64,000 nt of DNA from Methanobrevibacter sp. (lineage in GTDB: Archaea > Methanobacteriota > Methanobacteria > Methanobacteriales > Methanobacteriaceae): the NCBI RefSeq assembly GCF_017427765.1, contig NZ_JAFRSC010000028.1, positions 1-64,000 on the forward strand. Reading direction: 5' to 3'. The notes beneath the pieces are model-generated. The model was not told the origin of the DNA. It searched no databases and worked only from the letters and a program-made list of their open reading frames with translations. Below, piece after piece: positions 11,078 to 41,938 of this stretch. Both the position numbers and the translations under genes were made by a program. The stretch's first letter is position 1, and every line of letters starts with the position of its first letter.

Positions 11078-12226
11078 ATGACTTACAAATCTAAATTCGG
11101 TTTTGGATGCATGAGACTTCCACAAACCGATGAAAATGACCCAACAACTATCGACCAGGAATTATTTACTGAGATGGTCGACATTTACATGGAAAAAGGA
11201 TACAACTATTTCGATACTTCCTATGCATATCACAATGGCGCTAGCGAAGTAGCAATCAGAAAGGCAGTAGTTGAAAGATATCCCAGAGAATCATTTAAAA
11301 TTTGTGATAAGATGCCGACCTGGGCATTGACATCCGAGCAGGACAATGACAAATTCGTCAATGAGATGCTTGAAAGACTTGGAATTGATTATTTTGACGT
11401 GTTTTTCATCCACAATATTAATGTTCCATGGCTGGAAAATGCAAAGAATGCCAAAACTTTCGAATACGTTAAAAAAATGAAGGAAGACGGAAAAGCAAAA
11501 CAGATTGGTATAAGCTTTCATGACAATTCCAAATTATTAAAAGAAGTTTTGGACGAATACGGAGACATTTTAGATATCGTCCAGCTGGAGCTTAACTATC
11601 TTGACTGGGAAGATCCGGCAATCGAAGCACATAAATGCTATGACTTATGTGTTGAACATGGACTTGACGTTTATGTAATGGAACCATTGAAAGGCGGAGT
11701 TATTGTAAACACAAATGATGAAATTAAAAATGAATTTAATGAATTTAATCCGGATAAGTCAATAGCCAGCTTTGCAATAAGATTCTGCGCTTCCCTTGAA
11801 CATGTAAAAATCGTTTTAAGCGGCATGAGCAAAATGGAAGATTTGCTTGACAACTGCGACACATATGACAATTTTGAGGTATTAAGCGATGAGGAATCTG
11901 CATTTTTAGAAAAAATGGCACTGAAACTCAAAGAAAATGTTGCAGTACCTTGCAGTGAATGTGGATACTGCATAGATGCATGTCCTGAGATGATTCCAAT
12001 TCCAGAATATTTCAACTTATACAATACAAGCAAAAACCAGCCTGAATCAGACATCTACAGATTATACTACGATAAATTAGGCGATGAAAAAGTGCCTGCA
12101 GACGATTGCACTTATTGCGGAACCTGTCTTGACCATTGTACTCAAAAAATAGACATTCCAGATAAACTTGAAGAAGTTTGCAGTCATTTTGAAAATGGAT
12201 TCAGTCCTTATGCTGATTTCCCTTAA
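11078..12226 (+). CDS. Aldo/keto reductase with C-terminal ferredoxin domain
   Basis: A 382 aa fusion. The N-terminal TIM barrel has aldo/keto reductase features: GFGCMRLPQTD at residues 6-16, DTSYAYHNG near 48 (catalytic Asp and Tyr) and QLELNYLDWE near 170. The C-terminal 90 residues carry two Cys clusters, CSECGYCIDACP and CTYCGTCLDHCT, for [4Fe-4S] binding. Such fusions are common in anaerobes and probably use ferredoxin or flavin partners; the substrate is unknown. A good GGAG site precedes the ATG. It converges on the helicase gene with a 4-base overlap. Confidence 0.92.
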   Translation: MTYKSKFGFGCMRLPQTDENDPTTIDQELFTEMVDIYMEKGYNYFDTSYAYHNGASEVAIRKAVVERYPRESFKICDKMPTWALTSEQDNDKFVNEMLERLGIDYFDVFFIHNINVPWLENAKNAKTFEYVKKMKEDGKAKQIGISFHDNSKLLKEVLDEYGDILDIVQLELNYLDWEDPAIEAHKCYDLCVEHGLDVYVMEPLKGGVIVNTNDEIKNEFNEFNPDKSIASFAIRFCASLEHVKIVLSGMSKMEDLLDNCDTYDNFEVLSDEESAFLEKMALKLKENVAVPCSECGYCIDACPEMIPIPEYFNLYNTSKNQPESDIYRLYYDKLGDEKVPADDCTYCGTCLDHCTQKIDIPDKLEEVCSHFENGFSPYADFP

Positions 12227-15099
12227 GAAACTCTCATTTTTAATTCCTTAACCATTTCACCATTTTTATTTATTTTTGATGCTTTTCTATAGTATTCAAC
12301 TGCTTTTGGAAATATTCCCGAATGATAATATATCAATCCCATCAATGCAAGTGCATCGGCATTTCTATCATCAAAATTAAGCAGTTTTTCCAGTATTTCT
12401 GCAGAGGTATCCAAATCCCCCTGCACATACAAATCGTATGCCTCTTCATACATTACATCAATATCATCTAAAGAATCTATTTCAACATCTTCTTTTGCTT
12501 CTTTTTGATTATTTGAAAGAAGTACATCCAATTCATTTGCCATTTCATTAGTTCTGTCAATAGCCAGAGCTTTTTTTACAAAATAAAGAGCAATGTCATT
12601 CTGCTGTTGGTCATACAATATTTGACCCATCAGGGCAAGTGATTTAACATGTTTTTTATCTATGGCTAGAATGCTGTTTAGAATATCTTTGGAAGCAGAG
12701 TAATCCTTATTATTAAACAACTCCAAAGCCTCATCAAACAGTCCTTCAACATCATCATCTTCATCTTTCTTGACAACTTCCTCAACGATTTCCTTTTCGC
12801 CAACACTCTTTTTAGAAATTAGCTGAGTCATGTAGTTGAGAATATATTTTGTTGCATTTTTGTGAAGGGGCTTGTTATCATTTCCGCATTTTGGTGAGTA
12901 TATACAGGCAGGACACCCGCTTGTACAATTACAGTTTTCAAGCAAATCAACTGTAGATTTTAACAGATCAACAAATACGTCCACTGCCTTTTCACATATT
13001 CCTATTCCGCCTTCATAACCATCATAAATAAAAATGGTTGCTTCCTGAGTGTCTTCATGATAATTTGTTGAAAGTCCACCTATATCAAATCTGTCACACA
13101 TCGTATGAAGCGGAAACAGTCCAATCAATGCATGTTCAGCGCCGTGAAGACCTCCTGCAAAGACTTCCTCTTCTGCAAACATGTCTTCCAAAGTATCCTT
13201 AACCTGTTTTGGAATTGTAAACCACAATCCTTTAGTTTTAAATTTTAAAGGAGGCAAATCCAAAGGATATGTTCCGATTGATTTGGAAAACTGCATTTTT
13301 TTATATTTATAATAATCTTCACGTACTGTAAGCTCTCCAAAATGAATTGTCAAATTCCCATATTTTGTTCGAGACAGTTTCTTTTCTATGTTGATTTCAG
13401 TTTTATTTAAAACCATAGTGTGATAATCTACGGTTTTTTGGACTACATTAACAAATCCTGACTTCAGATTAACGCTGTTTACAACATAAGTGTCTCCTTT
13501 GTTAATCAAAATCGCACCTTCGTGAGCTTCCCTATAAACCTGAGAGCGCTCCATTGTCTCAAGAAGTCTGCCATTGTTCATAACTTTAAATTCCTGACCT
13601 GAAATCTGGTCAAGTGAATGGTCCAAAGCGGGATTATCATCATAAGGATACATATAATCTCCACGGATGTTTTTATGCAGGTCCTTTTTGGAAACTAACA
13701 CATCCAATATCTTGTCATCAACACCAAAGTATCTTGAAACTTCACCTTTTTTAATTGGCAATTCCTTGGCTGCACAAAGTATATGTGCTTCCTGCAATAT
13801 CGGATTGGTTAAATCAATTATTGCATTTTCATGAGGCTTATCAAAGAAAAATGATGGATTGTTCATAAAATATTGATCAAGCTGGTTTTCAAAAGCAATT
13901 AGAACAGCCAAAGATTTCTGATTGCTTCTTCCAGCCCTTCCTGATTGCTGCCATGTTGATATCATGGTTCCGGGATAACCTGAAATGATTACAGCATCAA
14001 GAGAACCTATATTGATGCCCAATTCAAGCGCATTTGTACATGTTACGCCCAGATATTTTCCACTTTTAAGGCCGTCTTCAATTTCCCTTCTCTCTTCAGG
14101 CCTGTAACCTGCCCTATAAGCAGCAATTCTATGAGCCAATTTTCCCTTAATTTGTGTCATGTCCTTTTTAGCCCACATAGCAATTAATTCTGTGGTTTTT
14201 CTTGAAACAGTGAAACATAATGTCTGAATTCCTTTAAGCATCATGTAAATAAAAATATTTTCAGTTTCCATATGAACTGAAGGTGCATTTTGCATATTAA
14301 CCTTGTTTCTTCTGTAATTTTTAAAAGGATTATACATTATAAAATCCTTCTCGCCACTTGGAGAAGCATCCTCATCAACCAGACTGAACTCCTCACCAGT
14401 CAATCTGTTTGCAAGTTCCAAAGGATTTGCCAAAGTTGCTGATGACAATATAAACTGAGGATTGGAACCGTAAAAATTAGCTATTCTTTTCAATCTTTTA
14501 ATTAAAAATGCAACATTTGACCCGAATACACCTTTATAGTAATGTGATTCGTCTATTACAATATATTTTAAATTTTTATAAAATCTGGTCCACTGATGGT
14601 GCCATGATAAAATCAGATGAAGCTGATATGGATTTGTCAGTACAATCCGAGATTTGTCCCTGATTCCTTTTTTGTCTTCTCGGGGAGTGTCTCCATCATA
14701 GGTTCTTGGTTTAATATCAATTTCAAGCTCCTTTTCAAGGTTTTCCAAAACATGCAACTGATCATTTGAGAGAGCTTTTGCAGGATAAATGTAAATAGCT
14801 GTTGCTTCCATATCATCAATCATGGTTTCCATAATTGGTAAATTAAAAGCCAGGGTTTTACCGGAAGCTGTTGGAGTGGTAATAATAACATTTTCATTAT
14901 TTTTAATTGCCTCATAGGTTTCTGCCTGGTGTTTATATAACTTGACACCCCTTGAATCCAAATACCCTATAATTTTTTCATTTAAATTGTCAACTTTTTT
15001 AAAACTGGCTTTTTTTGCTGGTATTGTCTCAACATGAGCAATATTATCCCTATATCGGACATCATTTTTAAACATATCAATATTGTTGGGCTCAGACAT
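12223..15099 (-). CDS. DUF1998 DEAD/DEAH-box helicase (MrfA-like) fused to C-terminal TPR repeats
   Basis: A 958 aa superfamily 2 helicase. Motif I is TPTASGKTLAF (near 76-86), motif II DESH near 180, and motif VI QSGRAGRSN near 395. After the helicase core comes a DUF1998 region with a Cys-rich metal site, NCNCTSGCPACIYSPKCGN (near 735), as in MrfA/YprA and Hrq1-type helicases. From about residue 785 an acidic linker leads to two blocks of TPR repeats to the end. MrfA acts in mitomycin-type lesion repair in Bacillus with the nuclease MrfB, whose TPRs are instead on the nuclease. A YprB-like nuclease is at 40892. It is transcribed away from the uvrD-like gene. Confidence 0.9.
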   Translation of the reverse strand: MSEPNNIDMFKNDVRYRDNIAHVETIPAKKASFKKVDNLNEKIIGYLDSRGVKLYKHQAETYEAIKNNENVIITTPTASGKTLAFNLPIMETMIDDMEATAIYIYPAKALSNDQLHVLENLEKELEIDIKPRTYDGDTPREDKKGIRDKSRIVLTNPYQLHLILSWHHQWTRFYKNLKYIVIDESHYYKGVFGSNVAFLIKRLKRIANFYGSNPQFILSSATLANPLELANRLTGEEFSLVDEDASPSGEKDFIMYNPFKNYRRNKVNMQNAPSVHMETENIFIYMMLKGIQTLCFTVSRKTTELIAMWAKKDMTQIKGKLAHRIAAYRAGYRPEERREIEDGLKSGKYLGVTCTNALELGINIGSLDAVIISGYPGTMISTWQQSGRAGRSNQKSLAVLIAFENQLDQYFMNNPSFFFDKPHENAIIDLTNPILQEAHILCAAKELPIKKGEVSRYFGVDDKILDVLVSKKDLHKNIRGDYMYPYDDNPALDHSLDQISGQEFKVMNNGRLLETMERSQVYREAHEGAILINKGDTYVVNSVNLKSGFVNVVQKTVDYHTMVLNKTEINIEKKLSRTKYGNLTIHFGELTVREDYYKYKKMQFSKSIGTYPLDLPPLKFKTKGLWFTIPKQVKDTLEDMFAEEEVFAGGLHGAEHALIGLFPLHTMCDRFDIGGLSTNYHEDTQEATIFIYDGYEGGIGICEKAVDVFVDLLKSTVDLLENCNCTSGCPACIYSPKCGNDNKPLHKNATKYILNYMTQLISKKSVGEKEIVEEVVKKDEDDDVEGLFDEALELFNNKDYSASKDILNSILAIDKKHVKSLALMGQILYDQQQNDIALYFVKKALAIDRTNEMANELDVLLSNNQKEAKEDVEIDSLDDIDVMYEEAYDLYVQGDLDTSAEILEKLLNFDDRNADALALMGLIYYHSGIFPKAVEYYRKASKINKNGEMVKELKMRVS

Positions 15100-15425: not shown

Positions 15426-17900
15426 ATGATTTCATATGAAAAATTTGAAGACATAGTAGTAAATACACTTAAGAGAGATATTTCTTCAAATCAGGACCAA
15501 AAAAAGGCCATACTATCAAATAGCGATGAATCCCTTTTTATTGTAGCCGGACCAGGATCAGGTAAAACAACCGTAATGGTTTTAAAAATATTAAAATATA
15601 TTTTTGTTGACGGAATAGACCCAAGCGAGATACTGGCTACAACATTTACAAGAAAGGCAGCTGATGAGTTATACTCAAGAATTTTAGGATGGGGGGATGA
15701 AATCAAAAATCATCTAACCGGTGAACTGGATGAAGATAACTTTGATGATATTGCAAAAATACTTGAAATCGAAAGAATTGACTTTAACCAAATCAACATT
15801 GGAACAACAGATAGTGTAGCTGAAGAACTATTAAGGGAATATAAAAATCCCGGAGAAACACAGCCTGCTGTTATTGAAGACTTTGTTGCAAACTCAGCAA
15901 TGATAAAAATCCTAATAAAAGACGAAAGATATCTCAATAAGAATCTTGTGGAATATCTTAAGGAATTAAGTGGAAGAGGCAAACTCGAAGAACCATCACG
16001 AATGAGTGAAATCCTACTTGAAATTAAAAACAGAATATATTATGACCAGGTAGACTTTGAGGAGTTATACAATAATGCAGAAAAAGAAAGCGGCATCAGA
16101 CTGGCGCTTGACTGTATTAAAGAATATGAAACTACTCTCAAAGAGAGACATACCATTGACTTTACAATGCTTGAGTCAACATTTCTTAATAAATTAAAAA
16201 ATGGCGACTTGGATTTATTTTTAGAAGATATCCAAATTGTTTTGATTGATGAATATCAGGACACCAATCTGATTCAGGAGGACATTTATTTTACAATTGC
16301 AAAATCTGCCTTAGAAAACAACGGCAACATCACTGTTGTAGGTGATGATGACCAATCACTTTATCGCTTTAGAGGCGCTACAGTTGACTTATTTACAAAC
16401 TACAAACAGCGTGTAAAAGACAAATTGGGAATTGATGTTGAAGAAATCAATTTGAGAACAAATTACAGGTCAACTGAAAATATAATCAACCATTGCAACA
16501 GATTCGTTGAACTGGATTCTGACTATCAGTTTGCAAGGGTGGAAAATAAACCGAAAATCATTGCCCCCGACTTTGAAAAAGACAAAATGCCAATTTTGGG
16601 AATGTTTAGAAACAATCCTGAAATGTTGGCCAATGATTTATCACTGCTTCTTAACAACCTTATTAACAAAGGAGAGGCTGAAATAAAAGTTCTGCAAGTT
16701 CTGGATGAAGATTTTTACAAAAGCATGAATAATGAAATAAGCATAGCCAGATTGCAAGAAATGAAAAGAGAAAAAATACAAAAAGGCAAAAAGATTGATA
16801 AAATCAGACTTAAACTGGATAGCGAATATGGTTCGGCATCGGATTTGGCTGTCCTTTCATATTCTCCAAAAGAAATTTATTATGGAAACAGAACGTTTCT
16901 CTATTATTTAAGAAAAAACTTAAGACGCCTAAGACAGCCTATCGACATGTTCAATCCTAGAGGACTTGACCTGCAGGAAATTGACAATGTAGCTATTTTT
17001 TGCGGTTTGATTTTGGAATGCATTGATCCGGAAGGAAGCATCCAGAAAACAGATAAAAGCATTCCTAATCTTGCAAAAAGAAACATGCTAAGATGGAGAC
17101 TTAAAGCAAAGGAATATATTAAATTAAATCCAGAACCCACACAACCAATGTCACTTAATTCATTTGTTACACGTTGGCAGCTTAGAAGACCATATCCTGA
17201 AGTTGATGAAAAAGGAAGGGAAGTTAAATGGCCTAAAACAGCCAGTTTAATGGAACTGGCATACAAACTAACAACATGGATTGAAGATTTGCAGGCAGAT
17301 GTGGAAGGAGTAGTCTACTTGGAAGCCATTACCAAATCAATTACACAAACCGGATTTTTCAATGAATATCACTCAAATATCTCTTTTGAAAGTCCGCAAT
17401 CAGAGCTGGAATCTGTTCTGGAAGCAATATGGAATATATTTATACCTATATCCACAGGAGGAGTTAAAATTGACGAGTCCCTTCTTGAAACATTACCCGA
17501 CAATAGAGTGAATGTTTTATCAATCCACCAGTCAAAAGGACTAGAATTCCCAATGGTTATTGTTGATGTGGGATCAAAATTCAAAACAAATGACATTAAA
17601 ACACAAAGATTAAGATTTCCTAAAAAATTAAAAGATAAAACATCTATTGAAGATAGTATTAGGCAGCATTCAACCCTAGGTCAAAGCGATAGAAGCGAAA
17701 AGGACAGGTCATTTGATGATTTGACAAGACTTTATTTTGTAGCATTTTCAAGAGCGGAAAGCGTTTTACTATTGGTTGGACTTAATTCAGCTATTGAAGG
17801 ATATAACAAGAAAAATCAGCATTTCAACATACCAAACATTGCTCTTGGATGGAGTCGTGATGAAAATTATATAGGATTTGAAGAGATTTATTTAATTTAA
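15426..17900 (+). CDS. UvrD/Rep-like superfamily 1A DNA helicase
   Basis: An 824 aa SF1A helicase with all main motifs: Walker A GPGSGKTT (about 42-49), TFTRKAADEL near 63, Walker B region LIDEYQDTN near 273, VGDDDQSLYRFRGA near 304, NLRTNYRST near 343, SIHQSKGLEFP near 698 and LYFVAFSRAE near 770. The long insertion between about 430 and 690 corresponds to subdomain 2B. It lies 11 bases upstream of an Fe-S RecB-type nuclease gene, so the two products probably form an AddAB-like helicase-nuclease unit for end processing or defence (inference). Confidence 0.92.
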   Translation: MISYEKFEDIVVNTLKRDISSNQDQKKAILSNSDESLFIVAGPGSGKTTVMVLKILKYIFVDGIDPSEILATTFTRKAADELYSRILGWGDEIKNHLTGELDEDNFDDIAKILEIERIDFNQINIGTTDSVAEELLREYKNPGETQPAVIEDFVANSAMIKILIKDERYLNKNLVEYLKELSGRGKLEEPSRMSEILLEIKNRIYYDQVDFEELYNNAEKESGIRLALDCIKEYETTLKERHTIDFTMLESTFLNKLKNGDLDLFLEDIQIVLIDEYQDTNLIQEDIYFTIAKSALENNGNITVVGDDDQSLYRFRGATVDLFTNYKQRVKDKLGIDVEEINLRTNYRSTENIINHCNRFVELDSDYQFARVENKPKIIAPDFEKDKMPILGMFRNNPEMLANDLSLLLNNLINKGEAEIKVLQVLDEDFYKSMNNEISIARLQEMKREKIQKGKKIDKIRLKLDSEYGSASDLAVLSYSPKEIYYGNRTFLYYLRKNLRRLRQPIDMFNPRGLDLQEIDNVAIFCGLILECIDPEGSIQKTDKSIPNLAKRNMLRWRLKAKEYIKLNPEPTQPMSLNSFVTRWQLRRPYPEVDEKGREVKWPKTASLMELAYKLTTWIEDLQADVEGVVYLEAITKSITQTGFFNEYHSNISFESPQSELESVLEAIWNIFIPISTGGVKIDESLLETLPDNRVNVLSIHQSKGLEFPMVIVDVGSKFKTNDIKTQRLRFPKKLKDKTSIEDSIRQHSTLGQSDRSEKDRSFDDLTRLYFVAFSRAESVLLLVGLNSAIEGYNKKNQHFNIPNIALGWSRDENYIGFEEIYLI

Positions 17901-17911
17901 GGAGATTTATT

Positions 17912-19129
17912 ATGAAATTACCATCAAGATCAAAATCATATATGATACCCGAATACAGTCTTACTGGAGACTTATTATCATTCATCACATGTGGCCTTCA
18001 ATACAGATACCAGAATAAAGGAACCCTTCCCCCTTCAAAACCCGTGCAGAGATGGTTTGGTGAATTTATCCATGGCGTGATGGAAGAGGCATATCTCGAC
18101 TGGAAATACCAGCAGAAAAAATTCCCATGGGATTGGAAAACAGACATAAGACCAATAGAGGATGAAATCGATTTGAGATTACAGGTAAGGGGCCTTTATC
18201 CCCATGATGAAGATTTGTTCTTCAGTATCAACAGACCCGGAAACACATTGACTCTAGATGATTTAAATGAACATGACCATAAAAAGTTGGCCAGTGCCCG
18301 AGCCGAAAATGCCATAAACATCTGGGGAAAAGATTTGTTTCCATTAATTGATGCATCCGAACTTTTAATAAAAGGAATTCGGCAAATGCCAAATTATAAT
18401 AAGAACATCAGCAGATCCAATTATTACGGAATAAACGGCGTTGTTGACGTGTTGACTTCAACAAAAATAAATAATACACATGAACAAAGCACTTTATACA
18501 ATTTCGACAACAATATTGTTAATTTCATTAAGAAAAACCTTGATGAAAGTGACATTGAAGATTATGAAATAATCATCGACTACAAAGGAATGAAAAGACC
18601 TCCGATTAAAGTTTCAAAACCTAATGCTGAAGACAAATGGGAACATCACAAACAGCAAATATTAACTTATTCATGGCTCAGGTCCAAACAGGAAGACTCT
18701 AAAACAATTTCTGCCGGAATAATTCTTTATTTGAATGAACTTGTACCTTCAAAAGAGGATTTAGTTTTAATTAAGGAAGAGATTAAAAATGATTTAACAG
18801 ATATTCCTCAGGAAAACGAATTTGAAGATGATGTGCAGTTAATTATGGAGTGGGAAGAGGATGATAAGGCTCCAAATTTAAGTGATGAATTTAAAAGAGC
18901 AAGGTCAATTAGATTTATTGAAATCAATGAAAAAGAACGTGAAAAAGCTCTTAAAAAGTTTGATGATGTAGTCTGCAATATTGAAAATTCATTAATTCAG
19001 GAGATGAAAGGCTGTAAAATTCAGGATGCATGGAAAGCTGAAGCCGATGAGAGAACCTGTTCGGCATGCGATTTCAGGACATTTTGTAAAAATAACACTG
19101 ACATAACAAAAGACTTTAAAATTCCATAA
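17912..19129 (+). CDS. PD-(D/E)XK nuclease, Fe-S RecB/Cas4-like
   Basis: A 405 aa nuclease. One Cys near the N terminus (Cys27, ITCGLQYRY) and three near the C terminus (Cys383, Cys386, Cys392, TCSACDFRTFC) form the clamp-type [4Fe-4S] site of AddB and Cas4. Catalytic motifs are GVVDV (Asp near 179), IIIDYKG (Asp and Lys near 222-224) and QQILTYSW (Gln and Tyr near 246-251). HGVMEEAY near 49 matches motif I. It follows the UvrD-like helicase by 11 bases with a GGAG site. The pair resembles AddAB but the helicase lacks its own nuclease domain. Role in repair or phage defence is undecided. Confidence 0.88.
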   Translation: MKLPSRSKSYMIPEYSLTGDLLSFITCGLQYRYQNKGTLPPSKPVQRWFGEFIHGVMEEAYLDWKYQQKKFPWDWKTDIRPIEDEIDLRLQVRGLYPHDEDLFFSINRPGNTLTLDDLNEHDHKKLASARAENAINIWGKDLFPLIDASELLIKGIRQMPNYNKNISRSNYYGINGVVDVLTSTKINNTHEQSTLYNFDNNIVNFIKKNLDESDIEDYEIIIDYKGMKRPPIKVSKPNAEDKWEHHKQQILTYSWLRSKQEDSKTISAGIILYLNELVPSKEDLVLIKEEIKNDLTDIPQENEFEDDVQLIMEWEEDDKAPNLSDEFKRARSIRFIEINEKEREKALKKFDDVVCNIENSLIQEMKGCKIQDAWKAEADERTCSACDFRTFCKNNTDITKDFKIP

Positions 19130-38631: not shown

Positions 38632-39390
38632 ATGTCAAAAATCATGAAAATATATTTCAGTCCATCCGGAACAACCAAGCAGGTTGTTGAACAAGTTGCA
38701 AGCAATTTTGATAATCAAAGCGAAAATTACGATTTACTTAATTTCAGCGAAGCAAAAGAGTTTTCCGCACAAGACATTGCAATTGTTGGATTGCCTATTT
38801 TTGCAGGAAGACTTCCTAAAAGCGGCCGTGACAGATTGGCCAAACTGAAAGGTAATAATACAAAAGCAATAGCAATTACCAATTACGGAAATGCCCATGT
38901 TAGTGATGCATTGTTGGAATTAGTGGACCTGCTAAAAGAAAATAACTTTGATGTTGTTGCAGCTGCCACAACAGTAAGTCATCACTCAATATTTGACGGT
39001 GTTGCAGTTGGAAGACCAGATTCAGAAGACATAGAAAAAATTAATGAGTTTTCTAAAAAATGCGCAGATAAAATTGAATCCGGTGAAAGTTTAAAATCAG
39101 AAATTCCCGGAAACAGACCATATGTAGATTACAAGCAACTTCCATTTGAAATAAGCTGTGATGAAACAGTCTGTGCATTCTGCTATGACTGTGTATCAGT
39201 TTGTCCTGAAAAAGCGATTCCGGATGATGACCCTATAGATACTGACCTGGATATATGTTCCAGATGCAGCGCATGCATAAGTATTTGTCCTGAGGATGCC
39301 CGTAAATTTTCAGGAGAAGCATTTGAAACTAAAAAACCAGCTTTTGAAAGTGCAAATAGCGAAAGAAAAGAACCGGAGTTTTTCCTATAG
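38632..39390 (+). CDS. Flavodoxin-ferredoxin fusion (EFR1-like)
   Basis: A 252 aa redox protein. The N-terminal flavodoxin-like domain begins MKIYFSPSGTTKQVVEQVA with the phosphate loop and has IAIVGLPIFAGRLPKSGRD near 46. From about 175 two [4Fe-4S] motifs follow: CAFCYDCVSVCP and CSRCSACISICPEDA. Such EFR1-type proteins shuttle electrons between FMN and ferredoxin; the partner is unknown. An AAGGTGAGAG site precedes the ATG. It ends with a 6-base overlap with the opposite gene. Confidence 0.9.
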   Translation: MSKIMKIYFSPSGTTKQVVEQVASNFDNQSENYDLLNFSEAKEFSAQDIAIVGLPIFAGRLPKSGRDRLAKLKGNNTKAIAITNYGNAHVSDALLELVDLLKENNFDVVAAATTVSHHSIFDGVAVGRPDSEDIEKINEFSKKCADKIESGESLKSEIPGNRPYVDYKQLPFEISCDETVCAFCYDCVSVCPEKAIPDDDPIDTDLDICSRCSACISICPEDARKFSGEAFETKKPAFESANSERKEPEFFL

Positions 39391-40890
39391 GCTCATTCTT
39401 TTTTTAGCTACTGCTCTTACATATTCATTTTCATCAGAAATTGAAACTTCTTTTAGGACTTTTTTACTTACTATTTTTTTACAGGCGGCTTCACGAACTC
39501 TCCAGGAATCATCGTTTTTAACTATATCAGTCAAGTATTTCTGGTCCCTTATCAATGAAACAGCCCTGACAGATATATTTTCAGAAATACCCTGTTCATG
39601 AATTTTCATCAGACACTTTTCAACTTTAATTTTATTTAAGGCTTTAAGTGAAAATTCCTCATCCTTATTTGCAAGAACAATCTTAATCAATGTTTCAAGG
39701 TCTGTAATGTGGTCCAATGTTGATTTTCGGACGGTTTCCAATTTGGCATTTTTCAATATTTCAATGAAGTTTTTCTCTTCTTTAATGTGCTCCATAGCCT
39801 GTGTTGCAACATCATCATGTGTAGTATTGATTGCGATATATGTAAAATCTTCTTCATCAGCCAATGCTGGATTTGACAAAGCATGGTTTCTAACGAATTG
39901 GTCATCATCATTTAATGCAATATTAATCAGTTCTTTGGAATTGCTTAAGTTTTTAACTGCAATTTGTCTTACGAATGGATCTTTTTCGCCAGATATGATT
40001 TTCAGCAATGTGTCCTCGGAAGTTACTTTTTTAACGGCTTCAGCCCTTACAACACTATCAACATCATTTAAAGCAATCTGTGAAATTAAATCCTCATCAT
40101 CAACTTTATTTATGATATCCAAACGAACATCCGCCTTATCAGAATTTAAAGCAATATCCTTTAAAATACCGACATTTTGGATTTTTCCAAAAATAATCGA
40201 CCTGATTTTAGCATTTTCCTCATTTTTGGCAATATCTGCCAGAATATCTTCATTTTCAATCTTTTTGATGGCAGCTATCTTAACTGCCTCATCTCCATCT
40301 TGGACAGCTACTTTAAAAAGAACATCCTCATCAGTGAAATTATCTTTATTTACAGCAGATTTTCTAATTGAGGAATCCTTAGCTTTAAAAACCAGGTCAT
40401 ATAATATTTCTTCATCATTTATTTTTTCCAGAGACAATCTTCGGTAATTTCTGTCAATTGCATTTATAGCTATGTCTTCAAGAGTTTCCTCATCGACAAT
40501 CTTTTCAAAAATCTCATCGACATTCTTACTTTTTTTGGTGTTTTTGACAATTTCAGATATCGATTTGTTGTTTTCACCAAGCCTTTCATAGGCAAAACTT
40601 CTTACATCAAAAAATTTTGAATTTTCAGCAGCATCCCAAAGCAGCCTTTCGTCTTTAAGTTTATTTGCTGCAATCAATCTGATTGCACGGTCTTTAACAT
40701 TTTTTGCAATGTCAAGTGCTACAAACTGGTCTGTGATATTATCAGCTGCCACTGCCCTTTCGGTTCTGTCTTTACTGTTAATAGCTATTTCTTTTAAAAT
40801 AAGCTGATCCTCATCAATTTCAACATCATCCGGAACAGGTTTTTTTTCCTTTTTGTTGTCCTTACTTTTAAATCTGTCTAAAAATCCCAT
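39385..40890 (-). CDS. HEAT-like repeat protein, 501 aa
   Basis: After a Lys-rich N terminus (FLDRFKSKDNKKEKK) the protein consists of about 18-20 short repeats of 22-25 residues with the pattern L-x-x-I-A-x-N-x-x-D-x-x-V-R-x-x-A-x-x-K-I-x-x-E, as in ALNDVDSVVRAEAVKKV. This is a HEAT/armadillo-type alpha-solenoid used as a protein scaffold. It is followed immediately by, and starts 1 base after, the YprB-like nuclease gene, so the two are co-transcribed. A scaffold role for the nuclease is an inference. Confidence 0.85.
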   Translation of the reverse strand: MGFLDRFKSKDNKKEKKPVPDDVEIDEDQLILKEIAINSKDRTERAVAADNITDQFVALDIAKNVKDRAIRLIAANKLKDERLLWDAAENSKFFDVRSFAYERLGENNKSISEIVKNTKKSKNVDEIFEKIVDEETLEDIAINAIDRNYRRLSLEKINDEEILYDLVFKAKDSSIRKSAVNKDNFTDEDVLFKVAVQDGDEAVKIAAIKKIENEDILADIAKNEENAKIRSIIFGKIQNVGILKDIALNSDKADVRLDIINKVDDEDLISQIALNDVDSVVRAEAVKKVTSEDTLLKIISGEKDPFVRQIAVKNLSNSKELINIALNDDDQFVRNHALSNPALADEEDFTYIAINTTHDDVATQAMEHIKEEKNFIEILKNAKLETVRKSTLDHITDLETLIKIVLANKDEEFSLKALNKIKVEKCLMKIHEQGISENISVRAVSLIRDQKYLTDIVKNDDSWRVREAACKKIVSKKVLKEVSISDENEYVRAVAKKRMSL

Positions 40891-40891
40891 T

Positions 40892-41938
40892 TTAATTTAC
40901 TTCCTCATACATTTTCTCTAGAAAACTTGCTAATGAAATAATATCTTGACGATTATGTTCTATAATTGGAACGATTGGGCCTATATTTTTTTCGGCCAAA
41001 TAAGTATTATAGTAATCAGGAATATATTGGCCTGACACATCTCCATGACGTTCTATTCCAAAGAGTTCCTTTTCAATAGTTTGAAGCTGACAATTAGGAA
41101 GCTCATCTCTCCAGAGGTTTTTTGCAAAATACATCAAATCCAGATGAGGCAAATTCAAATCAACAGATAATCTATTGTACATACACCTGTTTTTGATATA
41201 TGGAACATCGAAGCTTTTTCCATTGAACGTGACATGTACTGAATCTTCATCCAAATGGGACAAATACGCTTCGATTACTGCAGGTTCCTCATAGATTTCC
41301 CTTAAAAAATATTGTGATGAAATTATTTTATTTCCTTTTATCTCAGCAACACCTATCAGTATTATCGGAACATTTGAAAGACCCAATGTTTCTATATCCA
41401 TAAATTTGAAGTTTTCCTTATCTGTCAAGCTGATTGATTTGAGAATATTGTCCCTGCATTTTTTGCTGTATCTGTTATTGTCGAGCAAATCAACAATTTC
41501 TGCAAATGATAGATTGTCCAGATTATCCATGAATTTGCATGCCACATCACAATACTTGTCATGATTTTTAAGAGAATCAATAGTGGAATATCCTTTATTT
41601 TTAAGATTCTGTTCTGTCTTAAGACCTATTTTAGGCAATAATTTAAGATTACTGTTCATCTGATTTTTAAAATCATTGTCATCAATTATGAAATTAATCT
41701 TTTGTTTTTCTGTAATTTTTAATGCATCCCCATAAGATGTAGAAATAACACGGGAGTTATCTATGTCAGATAATTTCTTGCCATCATAATCATTTAAAAG
41801 AGTTTCCTTATAATCCTGAAAATAGGAGTAATATAACTTTCGAGCTTCCTTTTTTGCTTTTTTGGATGGATTTTGAGAGCCTATTGAATTTGAAATGACC
41901 CTCTGCAGATACATTTCATGTTCATCATAGTTTGTCAT
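40892..41938 (-). CDS. YprB/MrfB-like RNase H-fold 3'-5' exonuclease
   Basis: A 348 aa protein with a helix-hairpin-helix-like segment (LLPKIGLKTEQNLKNKGY, near 99) and a C-terminal DnaQ-like RNase_H_2 domain. Acidic motifs are FMDIETLG near 178 (Asp and Glu), HVTFNGKSFDVPYI near 233 and EHNRQDIISLASF near 327 (His and Asp of a DEDDh site). LDLMYFAKNLW and LFGIERHGDVSGQYIPDYY match YprB. Bacillus MrfB has C-terminal TPRs that are absent here; the DUF1998 helicase at 12223 carries TPRs instead. A HEAT-repeat gene follows directly. Confidence 0.85.
   Translation of the reverse strand: MTNYDEHEMYLQRVISNSIGSQNPSKKAKKEARKLYYSYFQDYKETLLNDYDGKKLSDIDNSRVISTSYGDALKITEKQKINFIIDDNDFKNQMNSNLKLLPKIGLKTEQNLKNKGYSTIDSLKNHDKYCDVACKFMDNLDNLSFAEIVDLLDNNRYSKKCRDNILKSISLTDKENFKFMDIETLGLSNVPIILIGVAEIKGNKIISSQYFLREIYEEPAVIEAYLSHLDEDSVHVTFNGKSFDVPYIKNRCMYNRLSVDLNLPHLDLMYFAKNLWRDELPNCQLQTIEKELFGIERHGDVSGQYIPDYYNTYLAEKNIGPIVPIIEHNRQDIISLASFLEKMYEEVN

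Follow-up and report, generated by a model that had tools for sequence, protein, structure and literature searches.

The bacterial lesion-repair pair MrfAB consists of a helicase and an exonuclease. In the window, the stretch of 64,000 nucleotides analysed here, a helicase gene ends in TPRs and an exonuclease gene without TPRs lies 25.8 kb away. Do these two genes represent an archaeal MrfAB-like system, and where did the TPRs of the helicase come from?

The helicase belongs to the MrfA family and ends in a TPR tail

The preliminary description of this DNA reported a DUF1998 helicase with a Cys-rich metal site that ends in two TPR blocks. Domain searches, comparison with the solved MrfA structure 6znp and an AlphaFold2 model confirmed this. 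The features of the gene are as follows:

12223-15099, minus strand: gene for an MrfA/YprA-family SF2 helicase with a C-terminal TPR tail, 958 aa (open reading frame, domain matches, model)
12895-15066, minus strand: residues 12-735, helicase core that matches B. subtilis MrfA (6znp, phmmer E 2e-142; motifs invariant)
12901-13140, minus strand: MZB/DUF1998 Zn-binding domain (PF09369, E 1e-23)
12904-12933, minus strand: four Zn cysteines, C723, C725, C729 and C732, inside the MZB/DUF1998 domain
12496-12750, minus strand: five-helix TPR block A, residues 784-868 (TPR matches, model, pN/pS)
12229-12471, minus strand: five-helix TPR block B, residues 877-957, the better conserved of the two (TPR matches, model, pN/pS)

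The domain search placed the helicase DEAD domain at residues 56-225 (E 3e-32) and the MrfA Zn-binding domain (MZB) at residues 654-733 (E 1e-23), and it also found an HRQ1-type winged helix. B. subtilis MrfA/YprA (6znp, 6znq, 6zns) was the closest solved relative by phmmer, at 37% identity. It was also the top match in a PDB fold search using the helicase model, in which the leading entries were all of MrfA (6znp, E 3e-58). The two proteins share the domain order RecA1, RecA2, winged helix, OB/connector and Zn-binding MZB. All helicase motifs are conserved in the archaeal protein, and the Zn cysteine quartet was invariant across 35 archaeal helicases and the B. subtilis sequence. An SF2 core and a four-cysteine MZB/DUF1998 domain, colinear with 6znp, place the protein in the MrfA/YprA family. 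The model TIGR03817 (helicase/secretion neighbourhood DEAH-box helicase) matched residues 20-759 with 736.8 bits, below its curated cut-off of 874.1, a shortfall that concerns that subfamily and not the MrfA family as a whole.

In contrast to B. subtilis MrfA, the archaeal helicase continues for ~230 aa after the Zn cluster into a tail with TPRs. A linker joins the core and MZB to the two TPR blocks. TPR matches were obtained in two stretches, 776-843 and 884-954 (TPR_2, E 2e-12), and in the AlphaFold2 model five helices span 784-868 and another five 877-957, mostly at pLDDT 75-94. Relative to three close congeners, pN/pS was 0.11-0.21 for block B, 0.32-0.39 for block A and 0.10-0.13 for the helicase core; these values are rough, as synonymous sites approach saturation and the two more distant comparisons gave higher ratios. 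Since the pN/pS of block B is similar to that of the helicase core, the tail is no chance extension, and it is maintained by purifying selection. Searching the same genome with the tail gave no second close copy and identified no donor TPR protein. Text searches of a partial literature collection returned no paper on a TPR tail of an archaeal MrfA, and we make no claim of priority.

The nuclease is an MrfB-like exonuclease without TPRs

The second gene had been described as encoding a YprB-like RNase H-fold exonuclease that lacks TPRs, and this description holds, based on the RNase_H_2 match (E 6e-36), the relationship to the solved MrfB 8un9 and the DEDDh residues. Its features are:

40892-41938, minus strand: gene for an MrfB-like DEDDh exonuclease without TPR, 348 aa (open reading frame, 8un9 match, active-site residues, model)
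40910-41404, minus strand: RNase H-fold exonuclease domain, residues 179-343 (PF13482; best PDB fold match 8un9 MrfB)
41426-41671, minus strand: N-terminal helical HhH-like domain, residues ~90-171 (weak Cdd1 match; model helices)
41828-41938, minus strand: N-terminal leader, residues 1-37, low-confidence helices (sequence comparison; pLDDT 55-59)

MrfB 8un9 was the top sequence match (E 2e-21) and the best PDB fold match of the nuclease model, which is confident (pLDDT 87). The DEDDh set (D181, E183, D244, H328, D332) was invariant in 18 nuclease relatives, and B. subtilis MrfB (YprB) has the same RNase H-fold domain and all of the DEDDh residues. Unlike B. subtilis MrfB, the archaeal protein lacks a C-terminal TPR domain and has an N-terminal HhH-like helical domain instead. 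No TPR was found in it or in any archaeal nuclease copy scanned. The protein is thus an MrfB-like homologue of the exonuclease core and not an MrfB of the Bacillus architecture. In B. subtilis, MrfB deleted of its TPRs still complements at the highest expression level (PMC11194089).

The HhH-like region consists mostly of confident helices in the model. Its sequence signal was weak in this copy (Cdd1, E 0.084), higher in an orthologue from family f2 (HHH_5, E 0.005) and higher again in haloarchaeal RNase H proteins (E 1e-8 to 1e-10). The leader has the pattern E.YL...LS.S(I/L).S.NPS, which is conserved in several genera and predicted to be flexible; its presence or absence across genera was judged by eye from the N-terminal sequences. 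A second PF13482 match in the genome was rejected as a second MrfB, as it resembles a family-B DNA polymerase (DFRSLYPS motif). A 501-aa HEAT-repeat protein (39385-40890, minus strand), which begins one base past the nuclease stop codon, is likely an operon partner of the nuclease; the two genes are together in most of the loci fetched from the window's genus, with G037 as an exception.

The two genes form an ancestral operon in Methanobacteriales

A phylogenetic profile of both genes, proposed as a check in the preliminary description, revealed that they co-occur in most Methanobacteriales genomes; the lack of co-occurrence that this description named as a refutation was not seen for the pair. 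The helicase was detected in 144 of 150 genomes of the order, and by hand count about 106 of the 150 have a strong match to the nuclease; extending the search to the whole phylum added only two genomes. In ten genera other than that of the window (g4, g5, g6, g9, g10, g11, g12, g16, g17 and g18), the helicase gene comes first and the nuclease gene is its neighbour on the same strand, at spacings from a 4-nt overlap (L088, L086) to ~1.5 kb. The helicase-core and nuclease trees give broadly similar groupings of the genera; both are quick trees with several weak forks, and g3 forms a long branch near the outgroup, possibly an artefact. Given the adjacency in ten genera and the agreement of the trees, the nuclease of the window is the orthologue of the operonic nuclease. 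The pair is ancestrally an operon in Methanobacteriales. The adjacency in ten genera fits the linked gene pair of the MrfAB system, and the co-occurrence and adjacency support the earlier proposal of an archaeal MrfAB-like system.

That proposal also described the system as split over 26 kb, which is correct for this genome and its genus but not for the system as a whole. In 21/21 genomes checked from the genus (this one included, all having both strong matches on one contig), helicase and nuclease share a strand, with the nuclease 25-47 kb upstream. In the operonic relatives, the nuclease is downstream of the helicase, and this opposite order indicates a rearrangement rather than an insertion. 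The 26-kb split is therefore a derived state of the window's genus and perhaps also of the neighbouring g15.

Less regular arrangements were seen elsewhere. A nuclease match in G010 (C1:816382-816798) contains an in-frame TGA, and G039 (g7) has no helicase match and two nuclease matches (contigs C82 and C101), one with a TAG; both states possibly reflect decay of the pair. In four Bacillota loci (L164, L165, L169 and L173, from Lysinibacillus, Sporosarcina and Metasolibacillus), mrfB lies ~1 to 5 kb downstream of mrfA and is not adjacent to it, indicating that linkage loosens in Bacillota too.

TPRs are on the helicase in Methanobacteriales and on the nuclease in Bacillota

A helicase tail with TPR signal was present in 3/3 helicases examined from family f2, 4/4 from f3 and most genera of f1. 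No such tail was found in g3 (5/5 examined), g13 (6/6) or g8 (2/2), where the helicases end ~40-50 aa past the Zn cluster. As g13 is nested among tail-bearing genera in the tree, its tail was lost. Within the window's genus, the early branches have a single TPR block and the later ones have two.

The TPR tail was absent from MrfA in 80/80 Bacillota loci. Across these loci MrfB, when complete nearby, is longer than the archaeal nuclease (about 395-560 aa). B. subtilis MrfB has been described with three TPRs (PMC11194089), and Pfam searches of the C-terminal region gave sub-threshold TPR signals in two of four Bacillota MrfB proteins and none in the other two. The domain is one of degenerate TPRs; our own TPR profile barely detects it, so that a lack of signal with that profile cannot be read as absence. 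The contrast between the two groups, with TPRs on the helicase in one and on the nuclease in the other, is therefore real.

Plasmid-borne copies of the helicase, four haloarchaeal and one actinomycete, had no TPRs. At three of the haloarchaeal loci (L187-L189), an MrfA-type helicase likewise lies beside or near an HhH and RNase H nuclease. These pairs differ from those of Methanobacteriales in having TPRs on neither partner, a variable gene order and a nuclease that has diverged beyond a phmmer match to the one in the window.

Candidate partners of the TPR tail

Judging by its fold, the tail most likely docks another protein and thereby brings it to the helicase. One possibility is that it docks the nuclease leader, which would hold the pair together even after separation of the genes. 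The leader is conserved and predicted to be flexible, most copies from g13, where the TPRs are lost, have only a degenerate leader or none at all, and g3 lacks both the TPRs and the nuclease. In addition, AlphaFold-Multimer modelling of B. subtilis MrfA with MrfB has the MrfB N-terminus wrapping MrfA, although it is placed around the winged helix and not at TPRs (PMC11194089). Phyletic support for the leader as a TPR ligand is mixed, however, since G046 (g8) retains the leader without TPRs, TPR-type tails occur without the leader in f2, g14 and g17, and the f3g19 tail persists without any nuclease.

More broadly, f3g19 has a tail without a nuclease, g8 and g13 have a nuclease without a tail, and g3 has neither. 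The nuclease was found in 14/15 tail-bearing genera versus 2/3 tail-less genera, which gives no significant association (Fisher p = 0.31). Tail or nuclease can thus be retained where its counterpart is missing, and the nuclease is a candidate partner but not an obligatory one. B. subtilis two-hybrid data map the contact with MrfA to the exonuclease core of MrfB (PMC11194089), and the TPRs are thus not the main MrfA contact in that organism either. Collectively, we consider leader docking doubtful. The fuller scheme, in which a helicase TPR cradle absent from Bacillota grips the flexible leader in Methanobacteriales and allowed the genes to separate without loss of the complex, is slightly more doubtful still.

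Alternatively, the helicase may have drifted away from MrfAB repair, its TPRs serving another partner or an antiviral defence function. In the window, a UvrD/PcrA-type helicase gene (824 aa) followed by a PD-(D/E)XK nuclease gene (405 aa) is divergent from the MrfA-like gene (15426-19129, plus strand). Such a divergent pair could supply the other partner, as a uvrD-like gene divergently adjoins the helicase in g1, g2, g4, g5 and g8. The recurrence of this uvrD homologue shows that the repair-gene neighbourhood is older than the genus. Other branches of the YprA family are defence helicases (DISARM, Dpd, Druantia and ARMADA), which have the helicase core and DUF1998 domain in common with the helicase of the window (PMC12458937). 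PADLOC gave only partial matches, limited to the helicase domain, and none for the nuclease; neither a full-length match to a DISARM, Druantia or Dpd model nor an accompanying partner was found, and defence was rejected as an explanation of the helicase on the basis of these partial matches. Furthermore, nearly all genomes of the order have the gene, which largely tracks the phylogeny of the order, unlike defence islands, and its helicase core is colinear with MrfA over the whole length. According to a 2025 preprint, the YprA-only and MrfAB helicases belong to a DNA-repair branch that is separate from the defence branches (PMC12458937). Altogether, a role outside MrfAB repair appears unlikely.

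The tail was most likely gained independently

Profile comparison by hhalign aligned the helicase tails with the MrfB C-termini over 68 columns, with a probability of 89% and an identity of 10%. A designed consensus TPR scored higher with either set: the probability was 99.3% (34% identity) for the helicase tails and 97.7% (19% identity) for the MrfB domain. Each TPR set thus resembles a generic TPR more than it resembles its counterpart, the pattern expected of two unrelated TPR arrays, although with such a generic repeat fold the comparison has low power to decide between independent gain and an old transfer with later divergence. The TPR tail was most likely gained independently of the MrfB domain, which is also the simpler explanation. 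Archaea outside Methanobacteriales were sampled through haloarchaeal plasmids only (four helicases, three with a nearby RNase H gene), and a TPR-free ancestral archaeal state is thinly supported.

The preliminary description had instead proposed that the TPR module physically moved from the nuclease to the helicase, where it would do in cis the job of the MrfB TPRs in Bacillus. This is very unlikely: the complementary distribution, with TPRs on MrfA only in Methanobacteriales and on MrfB only in Bacillota, and the 89% profile alignment are in its favour, but the greater closeness of both sets to the generic repeat, the lack of any sampled pair with TPRs on both partners (the haloarchaeal pairs having them on neither) and the position of the MrfB TPRs at the far C-terminus, from which a simple shift of the gene boundary could not move them, leave it unsupported.

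Discussion

We favour an archaeal MrfA-MrfB pair that acts like the bacterial one and has an independently gained docking tail, and estimate the probability of this reading at about 0.7. Homology, operon partnership in relatives, and conserved helicase motifs and nuclease active site establish the MrfAB pair. By analogy with B. subtilis, MrfA would unwind DNA in the 3'-5' direction using its RecA domains and the Zn/OB canopy, the DEDDh nuclease would trim the exposed 3' end, and the pair would probably serve in the excision of bulky lesions. In this reading, the C-terminal TPR tail was already part of MrfA in the last shared ancestor of the three helicase-bearing families of Methanobacteriales. 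It came to have two blocks within the window's genus and was lost in g3, g8 and g13, with purifying selection retaining it elsewhere, most likely as a docking surface for a partner protein of the helicase. The locus is best read as a lineage-specific architectural variant of MrfAB.

These results add a major order of methanogens to the known range of a lesion-repair pair documented in bacteria. They also show that the architecture and linkage of MrfAB are labile: the TPRs belong to the nuclease in Bacillota, to the helicase in Methanobacteriales and to neither partner in the sampled haloarchaeal copies. Lineages that have the tail without the nuclease, or the nuclease without the tail, make the relationship between the TPRs and the nuclease testable by comparison.
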